Shown here piece by piece: positions 3,977 through 16,803 of a stretch of 20,537 nt of DNA. The position numbers were made by a program, and so were the translations under genes. This DNA is from a virus, in IMG/VR virus record IMGVR_UViG_3300043803_001322, positions 1-20,537 of that record. One strand, 5' to 3'. A model generated the notes under the pieces. The model saw only the letters and a list, made by a program, of their open reading frames with translations. It was not told where the DNA came from and did no database searches. Every line of letters begins with the position of its first letter. The stretch's first letter is position 1.

Positions 3977-4052
3977 TGGAGCGGATGACGAGACTCGAAC
4001 TCGCAACATCCACCTTGGCAAGGTGGTGCGCTACCAATTGCGCTACATCCGC
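3977..4052 (-). tRNA. tRNA-Gly (anticodon GCC)
   Basis: A full cloverleaf can be drawn on the minus strand: 7-bp acceptor stem GCGGATG/CATCCGC, D-stem GCGC/GCGC, anticodon stem CCACC/GGTGG with loop TTGCCAA (anticodon GCC), and T-stem GCGAG/CTCGT (one G-T pair) with loop TTCGAGT. The discriminator T and an encoded CCA follow at 3980-3977, as expected for a glycine tRNA. It begins 2 nt after the end of the 236-aa gene and lies within the same probable transcript. It may supplement the host tRNA pool, or be part of an attachment site; I cannot tell which. Confidence 0.97.
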
Positions 4053-5191: not shown

Positions 5192-5677
5192 TCAGTTAAT
5201 TTTCTTACATTCTGAGCAGTTCATGTATGACTCAACTGGAATTTCGTGCTTGTTACCTTCTTTATCATAACTTATGTGAACTTCTTTACCTTTACCGTAA
5301 TAACCGTGACTAATACTGTTAGTTTCATGCATCCATTTTCCGTGTGCAAGACTTTCTTGTTTTTCACGGATTGGTCCAAAAATACGGCTATAACGATCTA
5401 CTACCTCTGGCTTCATCTTACGCTTTACGTCAAACCCTGAATCAGAAGACACAACACCATAACCATGATGTTCCATATGGCTTTGTGGGTAAACTTCGTA
5501 AACGTGGTTTCCGTAGGATGCCGCATCGTCTAAATGTGTAGAAGCAAAGGCAGCATGTGGACCATCGCCATCCCACTCATCGCCACGCTGTTTAGTAGGG
5601 TTAATTGTTTCGCCTTTGATCTTTTTAGCGTTGGTTCCGTGGAAAAGGCGGAATTGCTTCTCATTAAGGTTGCTCAT
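5192..5677 (-). CDS. Arr-like ADP-ribosyltransferase (161 aa)
   Basis: The N-terminal 65 residues resemble rifampin ADP-ribosyltransferase (Arr): LFHGTNA at 11-17 (the H of the H-Y-D type active site), a GETINPTKQRG segment, then AAFASTHLDDAASYGNHVYEVYP at about 42-64, where Arr proteins have a similar AYATT.LD.A..Y....G.VYEV.P block. Such enzymes move ADP-ribose from NAD+ to a small molecule or protein. The C-terminal 90 residues diverge, and a CSEC pair close to the end is not typical of Arr. A phage enzyme would more likely modify a host protein than confer drug resistance. It is preceded by promoter-like element D, 12 nt from the ATG. Confidence 0.7.
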   Translation of the reverse strand: MSNLNEKQFRLFHGTNAKKIKGETINPTKQRGDEWDGDGPHAAFASTHLDDAASYGNHVYEVYPQSHMEHHGYGVVSSDSGFDVKRKMKPEVVDRYSRIFGPIREKQESLAHGKWMHETNSISHGYYGKGKEVHISYDKEGNKHEIPVESYMNCSECKKIN

Positions 5678-5689
5678 AGACCAAGTTTA

Positions 5690-5718
5690 TGGCTACTGCC
5701 CCCATCCTACAGCGTCAA
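5690..5718 (-). promoter_or_regulatory. Promoter-like repeat D
   Basis: On the minus strand it is TTGACG, a 17-bp spacer, then TAGCCA (in CAGTAGCCATAAAC), 12 nt before ATG 5677. Unlike copies A-C it carries a near-canonical -35 box (TTGACG). The next bases, CATAAA, could serve as an alternative -10 placing the transcript start on the ATG itself. Confidence 0.55.
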
Positions 5719-5789
5719 CCATGTCTCCGACCTGGGGGGTCCCCTGTGCGCTCACGCTTAATGGTGGGGGGGTCTTAGCAATTTATTAG

Positions 5790-5836
5790 TGTTAACAATC
5801 TCCCCTGACTATTAATCAGGTGCGATCTTGTTAACA
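5790..5836. repeat. Nested 47-bp inverted repeat
   Basis: The outer arms TGTTAACAA (5790-5798) and TTGTTAACA (5828-5836) are perfect. Inside them is a second perfect pair, CCTGA (5804-5808) and TCAGG (5816-5820), around CTATTAA. Arms are offset by 5 and 7 nt. It could be a cruciform, an RNA hairpin or a recombinase core site. Confidence 0.6.
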
Positions 5837-5850
5837 TGCGCTCAATAACT

Positions 5851-5863
5851 ATGTGTTCCACAT
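5851..5863. repeat. N5-TTC-N5' palindrome 1 (ATGTG-TTC-CACAT)
   Basis: This is a perfect 5-bp inverted repeat about a TTC centre, extendable by a T-G and a C-G pair (5849-5865). It is one of five intergenic copies in which the arms differ but the pairing is kept. It follows the 13-nt string CGCTCAATAACTA (5839-5851), repeated at 15274-15286. Confidence 0.55.
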
Positions 5864-5956
5864 GGCTTGATGACTATTTGATGACGGCACAACTAACTAG
5901 CGTTCGGCTACTGACTACGGCAACAGTTTGTTAATACGGATACCACCAGCCTATTA

Positions 5957-5973
5957 GCCAACTCTCCGAGTTG
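5957..5973. repeat. 17-bp inverted repeat GCCAACTC-TCC-GAGTTG, copy 2
   Basis: This is the second copy of the repeat at 2737-2753, with one base changed in the centre. Arms CAACTC/GAGTTG are conserved. Confidence 0.5.
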
Positions 5974-6061
5974 TTATCAGATCATTACATCACTATTACC
6001 TAGTGCCTTCTCTCCTTGTAATAACTCACATGATCAAACGCATACACACAACTACATAGCC

Positions 6062-6074
6062 ACATGTTCCATGT
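6062..6074. repeat. N5-TTC-N5' palindrome 2 (ACATG-TTC-CATGT)
   Basis: Perfect 5-bp arms about TTC. The same 13-mer occurs on the opposite strand 69 bp further on (6131-6143). Confidence 0.55.
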
Positions 6075-6130
6075 AGCAATACATATCTCTTGGCTCTCTT
6101 GGCATCACATAACTATTAACTATTCATTAG

Positions 6131-6143
6131 ACATGGAACATGT
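6131..6143. repeat. N5-TTC-N5' palindrome 3 (ACATG-GAA-CATGT, inverted copy)
   Basis: This is the exact reverse complement of palindrome 2, making an inverted pair of identical 13-bp sites separated by 56 bp. Confidence 0.55.
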
Positions 6144-6260
6144 ATCTATCTATCTCTCTCTTATATCTCTATTAGTTATTACTGGAAAAAAATACTTCGG
6201 GCGCAATTTCCCACATAACTAATTAACTAAACATCTCTCACAAGGCGCACACACTTAACT

Positions 6261-6304
6261 AACTAACTTCATGCACGCCCATTAAAGTTAGTTCGCAACT
6301 AACT
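6261..6304. repeat. AACTAACT/AGTTAGTT inverted repeats, left set
   Basis: AACTAACTT (6261-6269) pairs with AAGTTAGTT (6285-6293), which also forms a tight hairpin AGTTAGTT-CGC-AACTAACT (6286-6304). A further AGTTAGTT lies at 6367-6374. The same unit forms two hairpins at 15238-15314, on the far side of the plus-strand operon. Confidence 0.6.
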
Positions 6305-6347
6305 CCCCACCGCCACCGCTTCCGCCACCATGAGTAAGTTCGCAATT

Positions 6348-6363
6348 TCGAACGGGTGTTCGA
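6348..6363. promoter_or_regulatory. Actinobacterial LexA (SOS) box
   Basis: TCGAACGGGTGTTCGA is a perfect match to the actinobacterial LexA operator TCGAAC-N4-GTTCGA. The 12 fixed bases would be expected about 0.001 times in a sequence this long with even base use. The nearest recognised start codons are about 670 nt (minus, 5677) and 710 nt (plus, 7072) away, so the promoter it controls, if any, has a long leader or makes a non-coding RNA. The host LexA would be the repressor, because no lexA gene is in the window. Confidence 0.7.
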
Positions 6364-6521
6364 GATAGTTAGTTCCAGTTCCGAGATCGCCAGTTAGCCC
6401 CCACGCTCAGGCTCTCACGCTCAGATAGCCCTAATCGGGCTTCTAGGGGGCTTTATAGCCTTCTACCCCCCATTTAGACCCGATCACCCCACCCAAACCC
6501 CGATCAGCCAGCCATGAGCCA

Positions 6522-6534
6522 GCGTGTTCCACGC
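6522..6534. repeat. N5-TTC-N5' palindrome 4 (GCGTG-TTC-CACGC)
   Basis: Perfect 5-bp arms about TTC, extendable by an A-T pair to 6521-6535. The arms differ from the other copies at several positions but remain fully complementary. Confidence 0.55.
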
Positions 6535-6644
6535 TCAATCGGGCAATTCGGACATATCACCCACGCTGGAACTCGCTCTTATCAGGTGATCAAGGTCAAC
6601 TGGATTTTCTGATACGATCTGCTCAGGCACACGACGATAAAAGT

Positions 6645-6681
6645 TTGATCTTTTTAGAAACCTCTAGGGGCAAAAGATCAA
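6645..6681. repeat. Inverted repeat TTGATCTTTT-N17-AAAAGATCAA
   Basis: Perfect 10-bp arms at 6645-6654 and 6672-6681 with a 17-nt spacer. It is the first of a series of long inverted repeats in the AT-rich stretch. Confidence 0.6.
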
Positions 6682-6728
6682 TAATTTTCAAGTGAAAAAA
6701 GCCTAGATAGAAATTAAAATCTAGTGAA

Positions 6729-6765
6729 CTTAATAAGTCATTAAATCCTTCGGGAACTTATTAAG
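6729..6765. repeat. Inverted repeat CTTAATAAGT-N17-ACTTATTAAG
   Basis: Perfect 10-bp arms at 6729-6738 and 6756-6765 with a 17-nt spacer, the same geometry as the repeat at 6645-6681 but with unrelated arm sequence. A smaller pair, CTAGAT/ATCTAG (6703-6708 and 6719-6724), lies between them, and the palindrome TTTGTTA-A-TAACAAA (6852-6866) follows. Confidence 0.6.
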
Positions 6766-6950
6766 GTGATAGCAAATTAATTAACTATTAATTACATAGA
6801 GAATTAGGCAAACATAATCAATATGTTTTCTATTAATTAATCATGGATAGTTTTGTTAATAACAAATGCCGACAGTATCCAATCTGATCTAAGCACTAAG
6901 AAGTTAATTAATAATAAATAAAATAAACATATTGCTATATGTGTTTTCTG

Positions 6951-6997
6951 CTATTACTGGCAATAAATAATCTGCGAATTATCTTTACCAGTAATAG
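6951..6997. repeat. Inverted repeat CTATTACTGG-N27-CCAGTAATAG
   Basis: Perfect 10-bp arms at 6951-6960 and 6988-6997, 27-nt spacer, about 75-120 nt before the first gene of the plus-strand operon. Related strings TTATTACTGG and CCAGTAATA occur near 6175 and 7594. Confidence 0.55.
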
Positions 6998-7000
6998 TGG

Positions 7001-7019
7001 TGAATACATAGTGTATTCA
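7001..7019 (+). promoter_or_regulatory. 19-bp operator-like palindrome
   Basis: TGAATACATAGTGTATTCA has perfect 8-bp arms about a 3-nt centre and ends 52 nt before the ATG at 7072. Size and position suit the binding site of a dimeric HTH repressor controlling the plus-strand operon. No obvious -35/-10 pair could be fixed. Confidence 0.5.
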
Positions 7020-7071
7020 ATACAACTTAATATAGAACTTAATTCCTTCCCCCTAACAAAAGGAATAAGTA

Positions 7072-7254
7072 ATGAAAACAAATACATATATAGATACAAA
7101 CGGAAATATCGTTGCTACTGGAACAATCTCAATTAACCAAATTGATCTCGTTCTATCTAATGGAACTCGGTTCTTTTCTACTCGTTCCGATAACTACACT
7201 CTTGATGTTTTGAAAAACTTAAACATCAACAAAATAGTCAAAGGACTAAAATAA
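7072..7254 (+). CDS. Small protein heading the plus-strand operon (60 aa)
   Basis: I do not recognise this protein. It reads as beta-rich: MKTNTYIDTNGNIVATGTIS, then a strand with DLVLSNGTRFFSTR, and a short basic C-terminus (NINKIVKGLK). A Shine-Dalgarno (AAAGGAATAAGT) precedes the ATG. Its stop codon TAA directly abuts the ATG of the next gene (7255), so the two are coupled. It sits first after the inverted-repeat region and the 19-bp palindrome, a place often taken by early regulators, but no DNA-binding motif is visible. Confidence 0.65.
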   Translation: MKTNTYIDTNGNIVATGTISINQIDLVLSNGTRFFSTRSDNYTLDVLKNLNINKIVKGLK

Positions 7255-7539
7255 ATGAAAAACAAAAAAATGGTTATTGATGATCTAACTTATGATGAAG
7301 TTGGATTGTTATGCACCGCATTAAAAACCACAATAATAAAGATGAAGGAATTAGAAGTTCCTGAGTTCTTTATTGAAACCGCAATCTCTTTGTTTAATCA
7401 AGTTGAAGTTATCCTTGATACCAAAGTGGCTGAACAAAAAACTTTTATCGAGTTGATAAACGATCAACTTGATGATGTTGCAATCGCATCAGAGATCATT
7501 GAAAAAAACCCTGATGTGGTAATACCTGAATACAAATAA
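7255..7539 (+). CDS. Acidic helical protein (94 aa)
   Basis: There is no recognised domain. The protein is acidic and mostly helical, with heptad-like stretches around LLCTALKTTIIKMKELE and EVILDTKVAEQKTFIELI, and would suit a small dimer or an adaptor. It has no Cys pairs or membrane segment. Its ATG directly follows the stop of the 60-aa gene, with AAAGGA 8-13 nt upstream inside that gene. After it come a strong hairpin (7546-7582) and then the AAA+ ATPase gene, so it may be a partner of that pair. Confidence 0.65.
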   Translation: MKNKKMVIDDLTYDEVGLLCTALKTTIIKMKELEVPEFFIETAISLFNQVEVILDTKVAEQKTFIELINDQLDDVAIASEIIEKNPDVVIPEYK

Positions 7540-7545
7540 ATAAGT

Positions 7546-7582
7546 TTGTGTTAGTGATTGATTTTGGCTTTCACTAACACAA
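7546..7582 (+). promoter_or_regulatory. Strong hairpin between operon genes
   Basis: TTGTGTTAGTGA (7546-7557) pairs perfectly with TCACTAACACAA (7571-7582), a 12-bp stem with a 13-nt loop. No T-run follows, so it is not a classical terminator. It could be an mRNA processing or stabilising element raising expression of the downstream ATPase gene, or a protein-binding site. Confidence 0.65.
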
Positions 7583-7632
7583 TTCAATTCCCCAGTAATA
7601 CAAACTAACAACTAACAGAAACGGAAAACAAA

Positions 7633-8496
7633 ATGACTACAACAAATAACAAATCCTTCTTTGTTCCTTCGCTGGAACAAACTGGGCATTACATTGAACG
7701 ATCTTTCGGTGGCGGTATTACCGAAACTCAAATGTATGACTATTCACTTGAAAACAAAATGAATGTGTTAATTGAAGGTGATGCTGGAACTGGTAAAACA
7801 ACTTCCGCTATGGCTTACGCATCAAAACGCAAAATGAACTTCTTTGCAGTTCCTTCTAATAACGCACTCGACTTCACACAATTAACTGGTGGCTTATTCC
7901 CTGATAGCAAGGGCGAGTTAAAGTGGATTGACGGCGCAATAACAAAGATCGTTCGTGAAGGTGGCGTGTTATTAATTAATGAATTAAATAACGCACCAAA
8001 AAATCTTTCACAATATCTAATGAGTTTGTTAGATGATCGCCGATCAATTACATTGATGAGCCACGACAACGAAGTTATCCATGCTCACCCTGATCTATTA
8101 GTGGTTGCTGATATGAACCCTAACTATCGTGGAACTCAATTACTTAATGAGGCTTGGAAAGATCGCTTCGCAATTAAGTTAACTTACAACTACGACACAA
8201 AGATTGAAAAACAAATCCTTAGTTCAAGTTCATTACTGGAACTTGCTAATGGTATGCGTTCAACGCTTCGTGTTAATGATGCTTCTAATCCTTCAACCAT
8301 ATTTGAAACCCCAGTATCAACTCGTATCTTAAAAACATTCGAGAAACTTGCTAAGGGTCTTTCTTATGAGTTTGCTAGTGAAGTGTTTGTTAATAACTTT
8401 GCTGATGATGAGAAGCCAGCAGTTCGTATGTTGCTAGAAGGTAGCGAATACAACATCAAATCCGATCTTGGATTACTTGAACCAGTTAACGCTTAG
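7633..8496 (+). CDS. MoxR-type AAA+ ATPase (287 aa)
   Basis: This AAA+ ATPase belongs to the MoxR/CbbQ-like group that remodels partner complexes together with VWA proteins. Walker A is GDAGTGKT at residues 49-56; a NALDFTQLTGGLFPD segment follows; Walker B is GVLLINE at 111-117; sensor 1 is VVADMNPN near 157-164; and NEAWKDRF with an arginine-finger-like Arg is near 172-179. In most relatives Walker B ends in DE; here the Asp position is Asn116 while Glu117 is kept, so magnesium binding may be weaker. No separate lid domain is evident beyond residue 200. The VWA gene begins 14 nt later. The Shine-Dalgarno is weak (ACGGAAAAC). Confidence 0.88.
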   Translation: MTTTNNKSFFVPSLEQTGHYIERSFGGGITETQMYDYSLENKMNVLIEGDAGTGKTTSAMAYASKRKMNFFAVPSNNALDFTQLTGGLFPDSKGELKWIDGAITKIVREGGVLLINELNNAPKNLSQYLMSLLDDRRSITLMSHDNEVIHAHPDLLVVADMNPNYRGTQLLNEAWKDRFAIKLTYNYDTKIEKQILSSSSLLELANGMRSTLRVNDASNPSTIFETPVSTRILKTFEKLAKGLSYEFASEVFVNNFADDEKPAVRMLLEGSEYNIKSDLGLLEPVNA

Positions 8497-8510
8497 TTAG
8501 GAATAAATAA

Positions 8511-10391
8511 ATGGAATATCCATTCTTAGATTTAGATGAGGCTCTAACTCAATCTAATCTAAAAAATAAGGAGAAGCAGGAAGCAGAAATTAAACGCCAA
8601 AGGATTGAACGATTTACTCAATTCTTTGGCAGAGTTAATTCTGCATTAACACTTCGTAAGGTTGAGGTTAAAGTTGAACATGCAGAGATCAACGCACCTG
8701 CTTGGTCAGGTGCTTCTCATGTTTGTTTTAATTCACGATTACTTGGCAATCTAAATACTCCAAAAGAGATTGCTGGTTTGCGTGGTCTTGATCTACATGA
8801 AGTTAGCCACATTCTTTACACACCAAGAGAAGGTTCTGAAATCTTTGAATGGTGTAGAGATATGGATTATTTATTTGCTTACAATGCGTTAGATGATCAG
8901 CGAATTGAAACTCTATTTACAACTCGCTATCCCTCAACGATTGATTGGTTCACTTCAACAATACTTATTCACTTTGTTGACGACCCACAAGCATTTGAAA
9001 CTTCTTACGGCTTATTGCGTGGTCGGCAATATCTACCAACTGAATTGTTGGCACGATCACGCAACGCATATAAGTTCCAAGATCAATTAGATGAAATCTG
9101 CGAAATTGTTGACCAGTATCGTGTATTAGTTTTTCCTGACGATACTGAATTAGCAAAAGATTTAATCAAACGATTTGATGCGTTAATGCCAAAACAAGAA
9201 GTTCCCCAAGACGGATTAGCGGATTGGGAAAAAGATTTACTTGGTGAAGGTGGCAAGAAAGTTATGATCTCAATTAAATCTCCATTCGGTCATGGTGATA
9301 GACCAAGTGAAGGCATAGAGAGTTCATCAATATCTCGCCCAGTTCCACCAATTCAACAAAAGCGTGATCGTGATAGGGCTAAAACAAAACCTATTAAAGA
9401 TGATGCTAAATTGGCAGAACAATTAAAATCAGAACCAGTAATTGAAATTGATTTAACAGATCAAAATAAAAATACTGGTAATGGTAAAACTGCTGGTAAT
9501 CAAACTCCTGATGATCAATCTGCTTTATCAGATATGTTAAATAACATATTAGATAATCAACAGATTGCTAACGAGATCAACGACATCATTAGACAAATTG
9601 GTGGCTTACCTTCTCTTGCTACTAATAATTCTAAAGAGCCACAAAAATCTCGGTATCATAATCAAACTCCTGATGCTAAAACTTTCCAAGCATCTCTATC
9701 TTTTAGTAGAGAGTTAGAAAGATTAAAAGCAACCTTTGACCCTGCTTGGAATAAATATCAATCACAGGGTCGCTTACAGGCGCATAGATATATGCGTGGT
9801 GATGATTTAGATACGATCTTTGATCAATGGTCAGAAGGTCAAGATGATGCCACAGAGATCGAGTGCGTAATCCTTTTAGACAATTCAGGTTCAATGAGTG
9901 GCAGTAAAGAAACTTCTGCTTATCGGGCTATGTATGCGATTAAAAGAGCATTAGATCGCATTAACGCAAACACCACAGTAATTACATTCAATACGGCTAC
10001 AAATGTTTTGTATCGTGCTGATGAAAAAGCAACTGGTGTAATTCGTAATGCTGGCTCTCAGGGTGGAACTAATCCAACCGAAGCAATCACTTACGCAACT
10101 AAAATACTTGCTGAAACTGAAAAGCCAGTTCGTATTTTCTTTGCTATTACTGACGGAGAATGGGAACACTATTCCGTTAGAGAAAATGATGAAGCAATTA
10201 AAAAACTAGGTAATGCTGGTGTATTAACTGCTTTTGCATATATCGCTGATCAAAATGAATTAGTAAAACTTGATCAGGAAAAATCACACTATTGCGAAAT
10301 TGGTGCGATTGTAAATAATCCCCTTAACTTAATTAGCATGGCTAAATCAATCGTTAAGTATGCGATTAGTCGGCGATTAGTTAACGCTTAA
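8511..10391 (+). CDS. HExxH metallopeptidase-VWA fusion protein (626 aa)
   Basis: The protein combines an N-terminal zincin-like region with LHEVSHILYT (HEVSH at residues 96-100) and a C-terminal VWA domain. The VWA metal site (MIDAS) is complete: DNSGSMSG beginning at Asp457, GGTNPTEA near 520, and ITDGEW with Asp548. Between them lies a low-complexity hydrophilic linker (about residues 280-390) rich in D, K and Q. VWA-like metallopeptidases paired with MoxR ATPases are a known bacterial arrangement, usually for metal insertion or remodelling of protein complexes; the target here is unknown. The start at 8511 has AGGAATAAATAA before the ATG, and the ATPase gene ends 14 nt upstream. A phage-borne copy might act on virion, host or defence complexes. 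Confidence 0.88.
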   Translation: MEYPFLDLDEALTQSNLKNKEKQEAEIKRQRIERFTQFFGRVNSALTLRKVEVKVEHAEINAPAWSGASHVCFNSRLLGNLNTPKEIAGLRGLDLHEVSHILYTPREGSEIFEWCRDMDYLFAYNALDDQRIETLFTTRYPSTIDWFTSTILIHFVDDPQAFETSYGLLRGRQYLPTELLARSRNAYKFQDQLDEICEIVDQYRVLVFPDDTELAKDLIKRFDALMPKQEVPQDGLADWEKDLLGEGGKKVMISIKSPFGHGDRPSEGIESSSISRPVPPIQQKRDRDRAKTKPIKDDAKLAEQLKSEPVIEIDLTDQNKNTGNGKTAGNQTPDDQSALSDMLNNILDNQQIANEINDIIRQIGGLPSLATNNSKEPQKSRYHNQTPDAKTFQASLSFSRELERLKATFDPAWNKYQSQGRLQAHRYMRGDDLDTIFDQWSEGQDDATEIECVILLDNSGSMSGSKETSAYRAMYAIKRALDRINANTTVITFNTATNVLYRADEKATGVIRNAGSQGGTNPTEAITYATKILAETEKPVRIFFAITDGEWEHYSVRENDEAIKKLGNAGVLTAFAYIADQNELVKLDQEKSHYCEIGAIVNNPLNLISMAKSIVKYAISRRLVNA

Positions 10392-12403: not shown

Positions 12404-12562
12404 ATGAGATCAAAAACTTATTACCGAGTTCGAACTGCGGTTCGTATTCTTTTTTGGAGTGCGTTAGCGGTTGGAACTTATTATTTAGCAACACACATCA
12501 GTTGGGTTGGTGATCACTATTGCTTTGGCACTATTGATCAATGTTATTTTGGGGGTAAATAA
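12404..12562 (+). CDS. Small membrane protein (52 aa)
   Basis: ATG 12404 directly follows the HNH stop and has a strong Shine-Dalgarno (AAAGGAG). The N-terminus is basic (MRSKTYYRVRTAVR), followed by one hydrophobic stretch ILFWSALAVGTYYLA (residues 15-29). A short polar tail with two Cys (HYC and QCYFGGK) would lie outside the membrane by the positive-inside rule. Function unknown; a holin-like or superinfection role is only a guess. The next ATG directly abuts its stop. Confidence 0.7.
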   Translation: MRSKTYYRVRTAVRILFWSALAVGTYYLATHISWVGDHYCFGTIDQCYFGGK

Positions 12563-13574: not shown

Positions 13575-13890
13575 ACCTAAAAGTCAAGTGTCTTTTACTA
13601 AAGCAAGAAAAGTAATAAAGCCAGTTGAATTAACTACGCCTACTCCACAAGATATTGATGATGCGCCATGCCAAACAGTTGACCCTGAAATCTTTTTTCC
13701 TGATCCAACTGATGTAATTGGTATTAAAAAAGCCAAAACTTTTTGTGGTAATTGCGATCAAGCAATTAAAACTAAATGTTTATCTTTTGCATTATCTAAC
13801 AAAGTTAGATATGGCGTATGGGGTGGATTAACTGAGATTGAACGCCAAAGTTTGCTTCGCAAACAATATAGGAGTGGTATCAATGGTTAA
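13567..13890 (+). CDS. WhiB-family iron-sulfur regulator (107 aa)
   Basis: WhiB-like proteins hold a 4Fe-4S cluster and bind region 4 of the primary sigma factor to redirect transcription; the family is confined to actinobacteria and their phages. Visible features are PCQTVDPEIFFPD with the first Cys at 35, FCGNC with Cys60 and Cys63, Cys71 in KTKCLSFAL, and the GVWGGLTEIER turn at about 83-93. The Cys63-Cys71 gap is seven residues, whereas the family usually has five. I chose ATG 13567, which has GGGAGATAAAG before it; an upstream in-frame ATG at 13510 would lie inside the previous gene and adds residues not typical of WhiB. Its stop overlaps the next start. Confidence 0.93.
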   Translation: MTKPKSQVSFTKARKVIKPVELTTPTPQDIDDAPCQTVDPEIFFPDPTDVIGIKKAKTFCGNCDQAIKTKCLSFALSNKVRYGVWGGLTEIERQSLLRKQYRSGING

Positions 13891-14353
13891 TACTTTTATT
13901 CCTTATCCTGACTTTGTTAAGTCTGCTAAGGCTCTTGATTACAGGCGATTAGGTAAGCAACGAGTTGAAGCGTGGCAAATACTTAGGGCGTTAATCGGTA
14001 TTAGTCAGGGCTGGCGTAATCACCCCGCTACAAAAATGTGGCGTGGGCATGAGAGGGCTTTGTGTGAATACGGAATTGCGATCTGCCAAGAGTGGATAGA
14101 TCGTGGCTACAAAGATACTTTGTTGCCCAGTTTTGTAGCAATACACCCAACTTTCCCTGATACTGGATTACCTTTTTGGTTTGGTAATTTAGAACTTCAT
14201 AACTCGCATCAAAGTAATCTAAATCGTAAAGATAATACTTATTATCAATTTAATGTGCCAGTAGATTTACCTTATCTATGGGCTGATACGGAAACTAAAA
14301 CTACAAAGTGGGGAACTAAACCTAATGAAACTAAACAGAAAGTTAAAAGATAA
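13883..14353 (+). CDS. Pyrimidine-dimer glycosylase/endonuclease V-like protein (156 aa)
   Basis: The N-terminus MVNTFIPYPDFVKSAKALD, followed by RRLGKQRVEAWQILRALIG and GWRNHPATKMWRGHERALCEYG, matches the MSMEG_6728/Pyr_excise-like group related to T4 endonuclease V (DenV). These enzymes remove UV-induced pyrimidine dimers by glycosylase and lyase action. Further conserved text is the AICQEWIDRGYKDTLLP helix and the FWFGNLELHNSHQSNL block near residues 100-115. I chose ATG 13883, which gives this standard N-terminus and has AGGAGTGG before it. It overlaps the end of whiB by 8 nt. A light- or damage-related role would fit with the SOS box at 6348; catalysis itself is inferred from the family. 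Confidence 0.82.
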   Translation: MVNTFIPYPDFVKSAKALDYRRLGKQRVEAWQILRALIGISQGWRNHPATKMWRGHERALCEYGIAICQEWIDRGYKDTLLPSFVAIHPTFPDTGLPFWFGNLELHNSHQSNLNRKDNTYYQFNVPVDLPYLWADTETKTTKWGTKPNETKQKVKR

Positions 14354-14355
14354 AC

Positions 14356-14544
14356 ATGAGCGAATGGCTAACAAATACAGATATAGCAAAGATAACTGGA
14401 TTAAAGATCGAAACTCTACACAGTTATCTAAATCGCAACACCCTTCCCAAGCCCGACAAATACATGGGGAGAACACCAGTTTGGTTAACGACAACCATAA
14501 AACAATGGGCATCAGAGAGAGAATTGGAGATTGAAAATGAATAA
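14356..14544 (+). CDS. Excisionase-like/MerR-type winged HTH protein (62 aa)
   Basis: The whole protein is a small helix-turn-helix: LTNTDIAKITGLKIETLHSY (residues 5-24) then a wing with LPKPDKYMGRTPVWLTTTI and a final helix KQWASERELE. This order (HTH, then a PxPxxxGRxxxW wing) is that of AlpA/Xis-type excisionases and MerR-like DNA-binding domains. With an integrase 0.9 kb downstream on the same strand, an excisionase role is reasonable, though a plain repressor is possible. It follows the glycosylase gene by 2 nt and overlaps the next gene by 8 nt. Confidence 0.75.
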   Translation: MSEWLTNTDIAKITGLKIETLHSYLNRNTLPKPDKYMGRTPVWLTTTIKQWASERELEIENE

Positions 14545-15465: not shown

Positions 15466-16803
15466 ATGGCGTATGTGATTAAGCGCAACGGCAGATTTAC
15501 AGGCTATTACAGGCTTCAAAATCGCCGTTTATCGGCTGGCACATGGGCTAATGAAACCGAAGCCATGTATCACGCCATACAAGCCGAGAAGCAGGGCTTA
15601 AAAGCCCCCTCAAAGGCTAATTTAAGGGTGGTTGATTTTGTAGATCAATGGCTGGCGGTGGCTGATCTAATGCCGATCACAAAGAAGGGCTATAAGTCGG
15701 TCTTAACTAGATTTGTAATTCCAGTTATAGGAGATCGAGAACTAACTTCCCTGAAGCCTTCAGACCTAGTTAAGTTAATTGATGATCTCAAACTATCGGG
15801 AGTTAGACCTGCCACCTTAAATCAGGTGAAGGCTTCTCTTGGCTCAATGTTTTCAAAGTTGGTTAATGCTGGTCAGTTGGAGAGCAATCCGACACATGGA
15901 ATTAAGATCAAGGTCAATCATGCCAATATATCTAATCTCCTAGACCCTGATGAGTTTAAGGAGATCATTAAGCATTTACCGACACAAGGAACTAAATTAT
16001 TTGCCCAATTTTTAGTAGCAAGTGGTTGCCGATTTGGTGAAGCAACGGAAGTAAGAGCAAAAGACATTAATTTCAAAACTGGCGAAATCTTTATTCAAAG
16101 GCGAGTTAGTGATCTAGGAACAAATTACAACAATGGAACTAGGTTCATGGTGATAGATGCCACCAAGTCAGGGCATAAGAGAAGCCTAGTGATAGGAAAA
16201 GCCCTATTACAGCAGTTAAATGCGTATGTCCTAGCAAAAGGCATAGCAAAAGATGATCTGATGTTTCCAAGAACAATACTCTTAACGGAAGGTAAACTTA
16301 AAGGTTCACGAAGCGCAAAGCCCTCTCGACCATTCGAGAAAGGCGGAAAACAGTTCCAGCATGGAACTCTCTACTCCTATACACATGGGAGTTGTAGATG
16401 CGAAGGGTGTAGGCAAGCAGTAGCAAACTACCGCAAAGCCAAAGCCCAAGCAGAAGCACTAGCAGAAGCAGAGCAGGTAAGAAGCCGAAGCCGTAAGGCA
16501 AAGCAGAAGCATCAGCAGAAGCACAAGCAAGGGAGTTTCATCAACAATATGAGCCACATGCCTCGTGATGTATGGAGAACAACTTGGAACAAAGCAATAG
16601 CCAAGTCCGCAATCGGCTGGTCGCCTAGAACTCATGATTTACGACATGCAAACGCTACGCAGTTGTTAAAGAACGGCATAGATGTCCATGAAGTAAAAGA
16701 GCGATTAGGACACCAATCGATCAAGACGACAGAGCGGTATTTACACCGCCTTCGTTCACACCAGTCAAAGGCATCTGAAAGTGCCAACGACTATTTGGAG
16801 TGA
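15466..16803 (+). CDS. Tyrosine recombinase (phage integrase) with a Cys-containing insertion (445 aa)
   Basis: This site-specific integrase has all three expected parts. The N-terminal 45 residues form an arm-binding-like domain (FTGYYRLQNRRLSAGTWANE). Residues 55-150 are the core-binding SAM-like domain (VDQWLAVADLMPITKKGYKS and onward). The catalytic domain has Arg189 (SGCRFGEA), Lys in ATKSGHKRS, His390 and Arg393 (THDLRH), His416 (LGHQS) and the nucleophile Tyr425 (ERYLH). Between the Lys region and His390 lies an insertion (about 290-375) with YTHGSCRCEGCRQA (Cys310, 312 and 315) and a lysine/alanine-rich tail. A GAGGGGG Shine-Dalgarno precedes the ATG. The next gene starts in its stop codon. 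Confidence 0.93.
   Translation: MAYVIKRNGRFTGYYRLQNRRLSAGTWANETEAMYHAIQAEKQGLKAPSKANLRVVDFVDQWLAVADLMPITKKGYKSVLTRFVIPVIGDRELTSLKPSDLVKLIDDLKLSGVRPATLNQVKASLGSMFSKLVNAGQLESNPTHGIKIKVNHANISNLLDPDEFKEIIKHLPTQGTKLFAQFLVASGCRFGEATEVRAKDINFKTGEIFIQRRVSDLGTNYNNGTRFMVIDATKSGHKRSLVIGKALLQQLNAYVLAKGIAKDDLMFPRTILLTEGKLKGSRSAKPSRPFEKGGKQFQHGTLYSYTHGSCRCEGCRQAVANYRKAKAQAEALAEAEQVRSRSRKAKQKHQQKHKQGSFINNMSHMPRDVWRTTWNKAIAKSAIGWSPRTHDLRHANATQLLKNGIDVHEVKERLGHQSIKTTERYLHRLRSHQSKASESANDYLE
16437..16532 (+). repeat. Period-6 AGC-rich tract within the integrase insertion
   Basis: Repeated units such as AGCAGA, AGCCGA and AGCAAA encode the alternating Ala/Lys/Gln tail of the integrase insertion. Similar units occur at 16842-16895, 17390-17450 and 18478-18540, in different frames and beyond gene ends. 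Confidence 0.55.

Follow-up and report, generated by a model that had tools for sequence, protein, structure and literature searches.

A putative accessory LexA-type operator and a structured leader RNA between divergent genes of an actinophage with an integrase

The window, meaning the whole stretch of DNA that was analysed, comprises 20,537 bases of a virus record and is, judged by its genes, a fragment of an integrase-bearing actinophage whose kin at the level of the AAA ATPase are Gordonia phages GMA6 and Gray and Brevibacterium phage Cantare. By identity of the AAA protein, Cantare is the closest cultured relative (44%), followed by Gray and GMA6 (40-42%); IMG/VR supplied 42 related loci, some within records of 87-97 kb. 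Encoded in the window are the AAA ATPase (7633-8496, + strand) and a VWA protein (8511-10391, + strand), which together span 7633-10391, as well as WhiB, a pyrimidine-dimer glycosylase (Pyr_excise, 13838-14353, E=3e-21), an HTH/excisionase-like protein (14356-14544, a weak HTH_17/AlpA match), a tyrosine integrase (15466-16803, + strand, Pfam PF00589, E=2e-23), a lysozyme-like protein, a class II ribonucleotide reductase and one tRNA-Gly(GCC) (3977-4052, - strand). A sequence-only reading of this DNA had reported the excisionase-like and glycosylase-like proteins, and both were found; however, it had also taken them as pointers to induction, and they lie 7-8 kb from the box described below, in another gene group, and by themselves are not indicative. 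Since the window encodes WhiB and the cultured kin infect Gordonia and Brevibacterium, an actinobacterial host is very likely, and low G+C together with resemblance to known freshwater actinophages points to a freshwater habitat for the group. A host search with the full-length phage tRNA-Gly(GCC) gave zero exact matches among 84,980 genomes, and the AAA alignment matched solely a distant Clostridiales fragment; a search with the same alignment found no prophage form of the phage. A tyrosine integrase is present in the window and in 18 of 19 related records, and a temperate status is predicted from this gene. Peptidase_S24, the domain of LexA/CI-type repressors, was found in 0 of 19 related records, many of them incomplete fragments, and the same search did detect it in 10 of the 14 genomes used as controls, C. 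glutamicum among them. The phage seems to be without an S24-type repressor of its own, but it may carry a repressor of non-S24 type.

Between the first leftward gene (5192-5677, - strand, ORF start 5677) and the first rightward gene (7072-7254, + strand; 60 aa, function unassigned) lies a gene-free divergent region of 1.4 kb (5678-7071), in which short ORFs are disrupted by indels among relatives and to which no similar DNA was found in the phage collection searched. The leftward gene encodes a 161-aa protein that has no Pfam or PHROG match and that may resemble Arr-like ADP-ribosyltransferases. The left part of the region is a conserved DNA block (5685-5997, no strand assigned) with ~70% identity in distant relatives, and its repeated words ACCTGATAACAA, TGTCACC and CAGTAGCC, read on the - strand, are kept in 18 aligned rows. 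Within the block, the strandless palindrome CCCCTGACTATTAATCAGGTG (5802-5822), one base off symmetry, is kept in 18 of 18 aligned rows, unlike the box; relatives read CACCTGACTACTAATCAGGTG on this strand. An RNA reading of the block was rejected, the signal being weak (z -1.8, - strand, 5678-6190). The block is likely to be the phage's main operator or its origin, and its conservation suggests control of the main switch by a phage protein. The box itself is contained in a hypervariable, palindrome-rich spacer (6225-6590, no strand) marked by indels and repeat turnover among relatives, where a neighbouring palindrome, AGTTAGTTCGCAACTAACT (6286-6304, no strand), occurs in 1-3 copies ~36 bp apart in relatives. 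The promoter-like element GGTCAACTGGATT...TGATACGAT, also written GGTCAACTGGATT...TGNTANNNT (6594-6618, + strand), is conserved in close relatives and probably acts as an extended -10 promoter from which transcription begins near 6625. In many relatives (L002, L005, L006, L008, L014, L017, L025 and L038) the contig stops within 1.2-3 kb of the AAA gene on its upstream side; disruption of the assemblies by the variable spacer is the probable cause.

The SOS/LexA-type palindrome TCGAAC GGGT GTTCGA (TCGAACGGGTGTTCGA, no strand) occupies 6348-6363, at 671 nt and 709 nt from the flanking ORF starts, which agrees with the sequence-only reading of a perfect actinobacterial LexA operator in gene-free surroundings with no start within ~670 nt. 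It is the single full match of the window to TCGAAC-N4-GTTCGA, with 12/12 specified bases. Under Markov models of order 1-3, between 1.3e-4 and 4.1e-4 full matches are expected per window, so the box is not background, despite a local spacer rich in GTTCG words and palindromes. That the box arose by chance, as a neutral sequence that became fixed in a single lineage and is now disappearing, is quite improbable: its scattered occurrence and its loss by deletion at short repeats would suit such an origin, as would the screening of many windows, in which rare matches are expected to appear, but the expectation of 1e-4 to 4e-4 per window, the location in a non-coding control region and the fact that allele differences all fall outside the core argue against it. 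A near match at 12430, TCGAACTGCGGTTCGT, was rejected because it lies within the coding ORF 12404-12562, and an 11/12 match in the related locus L053, TCGAACAGATGTTCTA, was rejected as lying inside an ORF. The box sits in the control region 270 bp upstream of the conserved + strand promoter-like element, and a simple scan, which unusual promoters would escape, found no promoter-like pair at the box itself, where no promoter could be placed.

Comparison of relatives revealed that the box is held in a 34-bp present/absent cassette, AAGTTC-N23-ATAGT (6336-6369, no strand). The cassette is present in the window, L044-L049, L085, L065, L091, L058 and L090, and the frame AAGTTC-N23-ATAGTTAGTTC is intact in all carriers. 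Retention of the box by related elements, which the sequence-only reading had named as a check, gave a mixed result: nine relatives having the region (L044-L049, L085, L065 and L091) carry the full site, with GGGC as the middle four bases in L085, and two more (L058 and L090, allele D) carry TAGAACATGTGTTCGC in the same slot with the GAAC/GTTC core kept, but the cassette is absent in at least eight close relatives (L004, L013, L120 and L122-L126), some with nearly identical flanks. The full site is also absent from all more distant relatives. Because at least eight close relatives are without the box, it is not essential, and by this comparison the box is optional and dispensable. The 9-bp cassette flanks AGTAAGTTC and AGTTAGTTC are near-direct repeats, and L004, L123 and L124 read GAGTTAGTTCCAG (or GAGTTAGTTCCAA) at the cassette position, as a AGTAAGTTC-AGTTAGTTC deletion would leave; some losses of the box thus have the appearance of deletions across the short repeats on either side. 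The cassette is missing in other ways in L122, L120, L125, L126 and L013.

When alleles B, C1 and C2 were compared with allele D, all 9 or 10 differences fell within the 23 nt outside GAAC/GTTC (P 0.003-0.006 each; 9/9 differences and P=0.006 each for B vs D and C1 vs D), in comparisons that are non-independent, were devised after the alleles had been viewed and draw on about five alleles. The outer arms of allele D no longer pair, and the GAAC-N4-GTTC core and its spacing are retained; a LexA-type site would be expected to behave in this way, and the pattern favours a protein site over a hairpin. Of the readings considered for the box, hairpin formation by RNA or by single-stranded DNA, such as a processing site or an origin hairpin, is the least probable; although six perfect pairs around a 4-nt loop could form, and the distant relatives L032-L036 have a hairpin with a UUCG loop, GAAC UUCG GUUC, at another place in their region, the two outer pairs are lost in allele D with no compensation, the fold around the box is no better than that of shuffles (z -0.07), and the transcript probably begins downstream of the box. 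The UUCG-loop look-alike in L032-L036, TAGAACTTCGGTTCGC, is situated in a gene-free region, for example at 8415-8430 of L036, and it reads as RNA.

The main rival to a LexA operator, possible though less probable, is that the box is one of several interchangeable palindromic spacer repeats serving a phage protein (a repressor or a replication initiator), with its LexA likeness arising from shared GTTCG words. This would account for the adjoining AGTTAGTTCGCAACTAACT repeats with their 1-3 copies and 36-bp spacing, for a GTTCG density in 6240-6640 that is ~13x that of the window, for the other palindromes that L126 has in the box slot, for the CGAAC...GTTCG arms of L013 at a different spacing, and for the patchy presence and absence of the box; however, the full site is expected just ~3e-4 times in 6240-6640 under third-order local composition, and allele D keeps both the spacing and the core of GAAC-N4-GTTC.

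The explanation favoured here, with a probability of roughly 0.5, is that the box is an accessory, dispensable operator, most likely with LexA of the actinobacterial host as its putative binder. The LexA-type palindrome (GAAC-N4-GTTC) would then be a protein-binding site for host LexA and an accessory input to divergent transcription in an integrase-bearing actinophage with no evident S24-type repressor. It lies in the turnover-prone spacer, between the conserved left operator-like block and the conserved rightward promoter, and the latter, ~270 bp downstream of the box, would give rise to a 447-nt structured leader followed by the AAA-VWA operon; LexA bound at the box would reduce transcription of one of the two divergent units, and DNA damage would free that unit again. 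Counted in favour of LexA were the 12/12 match, the allele differences outside the core, the integrase (18/19), Peptidase_S24 (0/19) and WhiB; counted against it were the lack of a promoter-like pair at the box, its absence from at least eight close relatives and, as a full site, from all more distant ones, and the abundance of similar GTTCG palindromes in the same spacer. Altogether, a LexA-type operator in the divergent control region is plausible. If the box does bind LexA, part of a freshwater actinophage group would sense DNA damage in the host directly and would need no S24 repressor to do so; close relatives that differ in having or lacking the 34-bp cassette would then offer a natural experiment on the gain and loss of SOS control.

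Two known systems bear on this proposal. GIL01 of Bacillus thuringiensis is a temperate phage under host-LexA control (PMC4551915), and the absence of Peptidase_S24 from the 19 related records, many of them incomplete, is compatible with use of the host's repressor in the manner of GIL01. LexA-type boxes in the phage control region are common to both, and as in GIL01 no CI/LexA-type repressor of the phage's own was found in the related records; however, GIL01 carries its boxes as a set within promoter P1 and has the small co-repressor gp7 (PMC4551915), whereas the window has a single, optional box away from any visible promoter, and the simple promoter scan placed no box within a lysogenic promoter. 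In S. venezuelae, the LexA consensus is tCGAAC-N4-GNNCGa and prophage genes are among the LexA targets (PMC9380542). The operator is thus of the same type as the box; the S. venezuelae sites were tested by ChIP (PMC9380542), whereas the box is known here from sequence alone.

The IMG/VR members of the group share a feature more striking than the adjacent box, namely the rightward operon's long, structured RNA leader (6625-7071, + strand, 447 nt). The stretch 6617-7071 folds far better than its shuffles (z -4.0, 0/100 shuffles). The sequence-only reading had offered a long-leader transcript beginning at the box, and the leader part of that suggestion is well supported; its start is not at the box, since the conserved promoter-like element lies ~270 bp downstream and the likely start is near 6625. 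Domain 1 of the leader (6819-6934, + strand), identified by alignment, is closed by the covarying stem P1 around GCCGACAGTATCCAATCTG, whose arms pair better with their own partners than with swapped ones (0/2000 permutations equal, kinship of the sequences being uncorrected). Domain 2 is a conserved, covarying 73-nt hairpin (6938-7010, + strand) in which 95.3% of cells are paired and 15 pairs are changed on both sides (0/500 shuffles), with a covariation score of 0.447, where shuffles give 0.209 and slid versions no more than 0.122. Its G-U pairs outnumber A-C by 72 to 7, which indicates that the RNA strand is +. A model of this hairpin, R1, was found in 13 of 14 IMG/VR family records searched, partly by construction because many of the model sequences come from the same records; it hits a single place in each record, ahead of the rightward operon, and scores far better on the + strand. 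Before the ATG at 7072, the fold also contains a possible Shine-Dalgarno-masking hairpin, ATTCCTT/AAGGAAT (7042-7066, + strand), whose sequence is kept in close relatives.

A search of Rfam 15, including GOLLD, ROOL and OLE, gave no match for the leader, the single match of the window being the tRNA-Gly, and at E up to 5 nothing credible was found over 5600-7650. Like GOLLD, ROOL and OLE, the leader is a long structured non-coding RNA, in the window at the head of an early-type operon; however, it is smaller, has no Rfam match at E up to 5 and contains no recognised known motif. As a structured non-coding RNA it was also compared with put of HK022, a phage leader RNA. The conserved leader is a new RNA element that is concrete enough to be tested and for which a calibrated model exists. 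The broader proposal that it represents a new class of multi-domain structured RNAs from freshwater actinophages, acting as an RNA switch (e.g., in antitermination, replication priming or translation control of the AAA-VWA operon) in a control region that, in part of the group, is wired to the host SOS response through the LexA-type box, is speculative and, taken as a whole, unlikely.

The Bendigovirus phages GMA6 and Gray and the Cantarevirus phage Cantare share with the window a homologous AAA ATPase (40-44% identity) that has a large gene after it. Gray (1.16 kb) and GMA6 (1.06 kb) also have a gene-free divergent region close to this place, and that of Cantare measures 0.66 kb and lies further from the AAA gene. 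These phages differ from the window in that no full SOS box is present in the stretches read and that the R1 search of Cantare, Gray and GMA6 gave no match. Gray has five one-strand copies of GACCGGGTG at L055 7392, 7577, 7982, 8048 and 8199, around the gene-free region and the first gene; this word resembles GAACGGGTG of the box and is absent from GMA6, and allele D has no GAACGGGTG-like word. The gene-free region of GMA6 contains TTGACA-N17-CATAAT and that of Gray TTGACT-N17-TATTGT, and long GC-rich gene-free leaders follow these TTGACT/TTGACA-type promoters in Gray (L055 7215-8026), where Rfam gave no match, and in GMA6 (L056 6297-6904), where the leader folds strongly (z -3.3).
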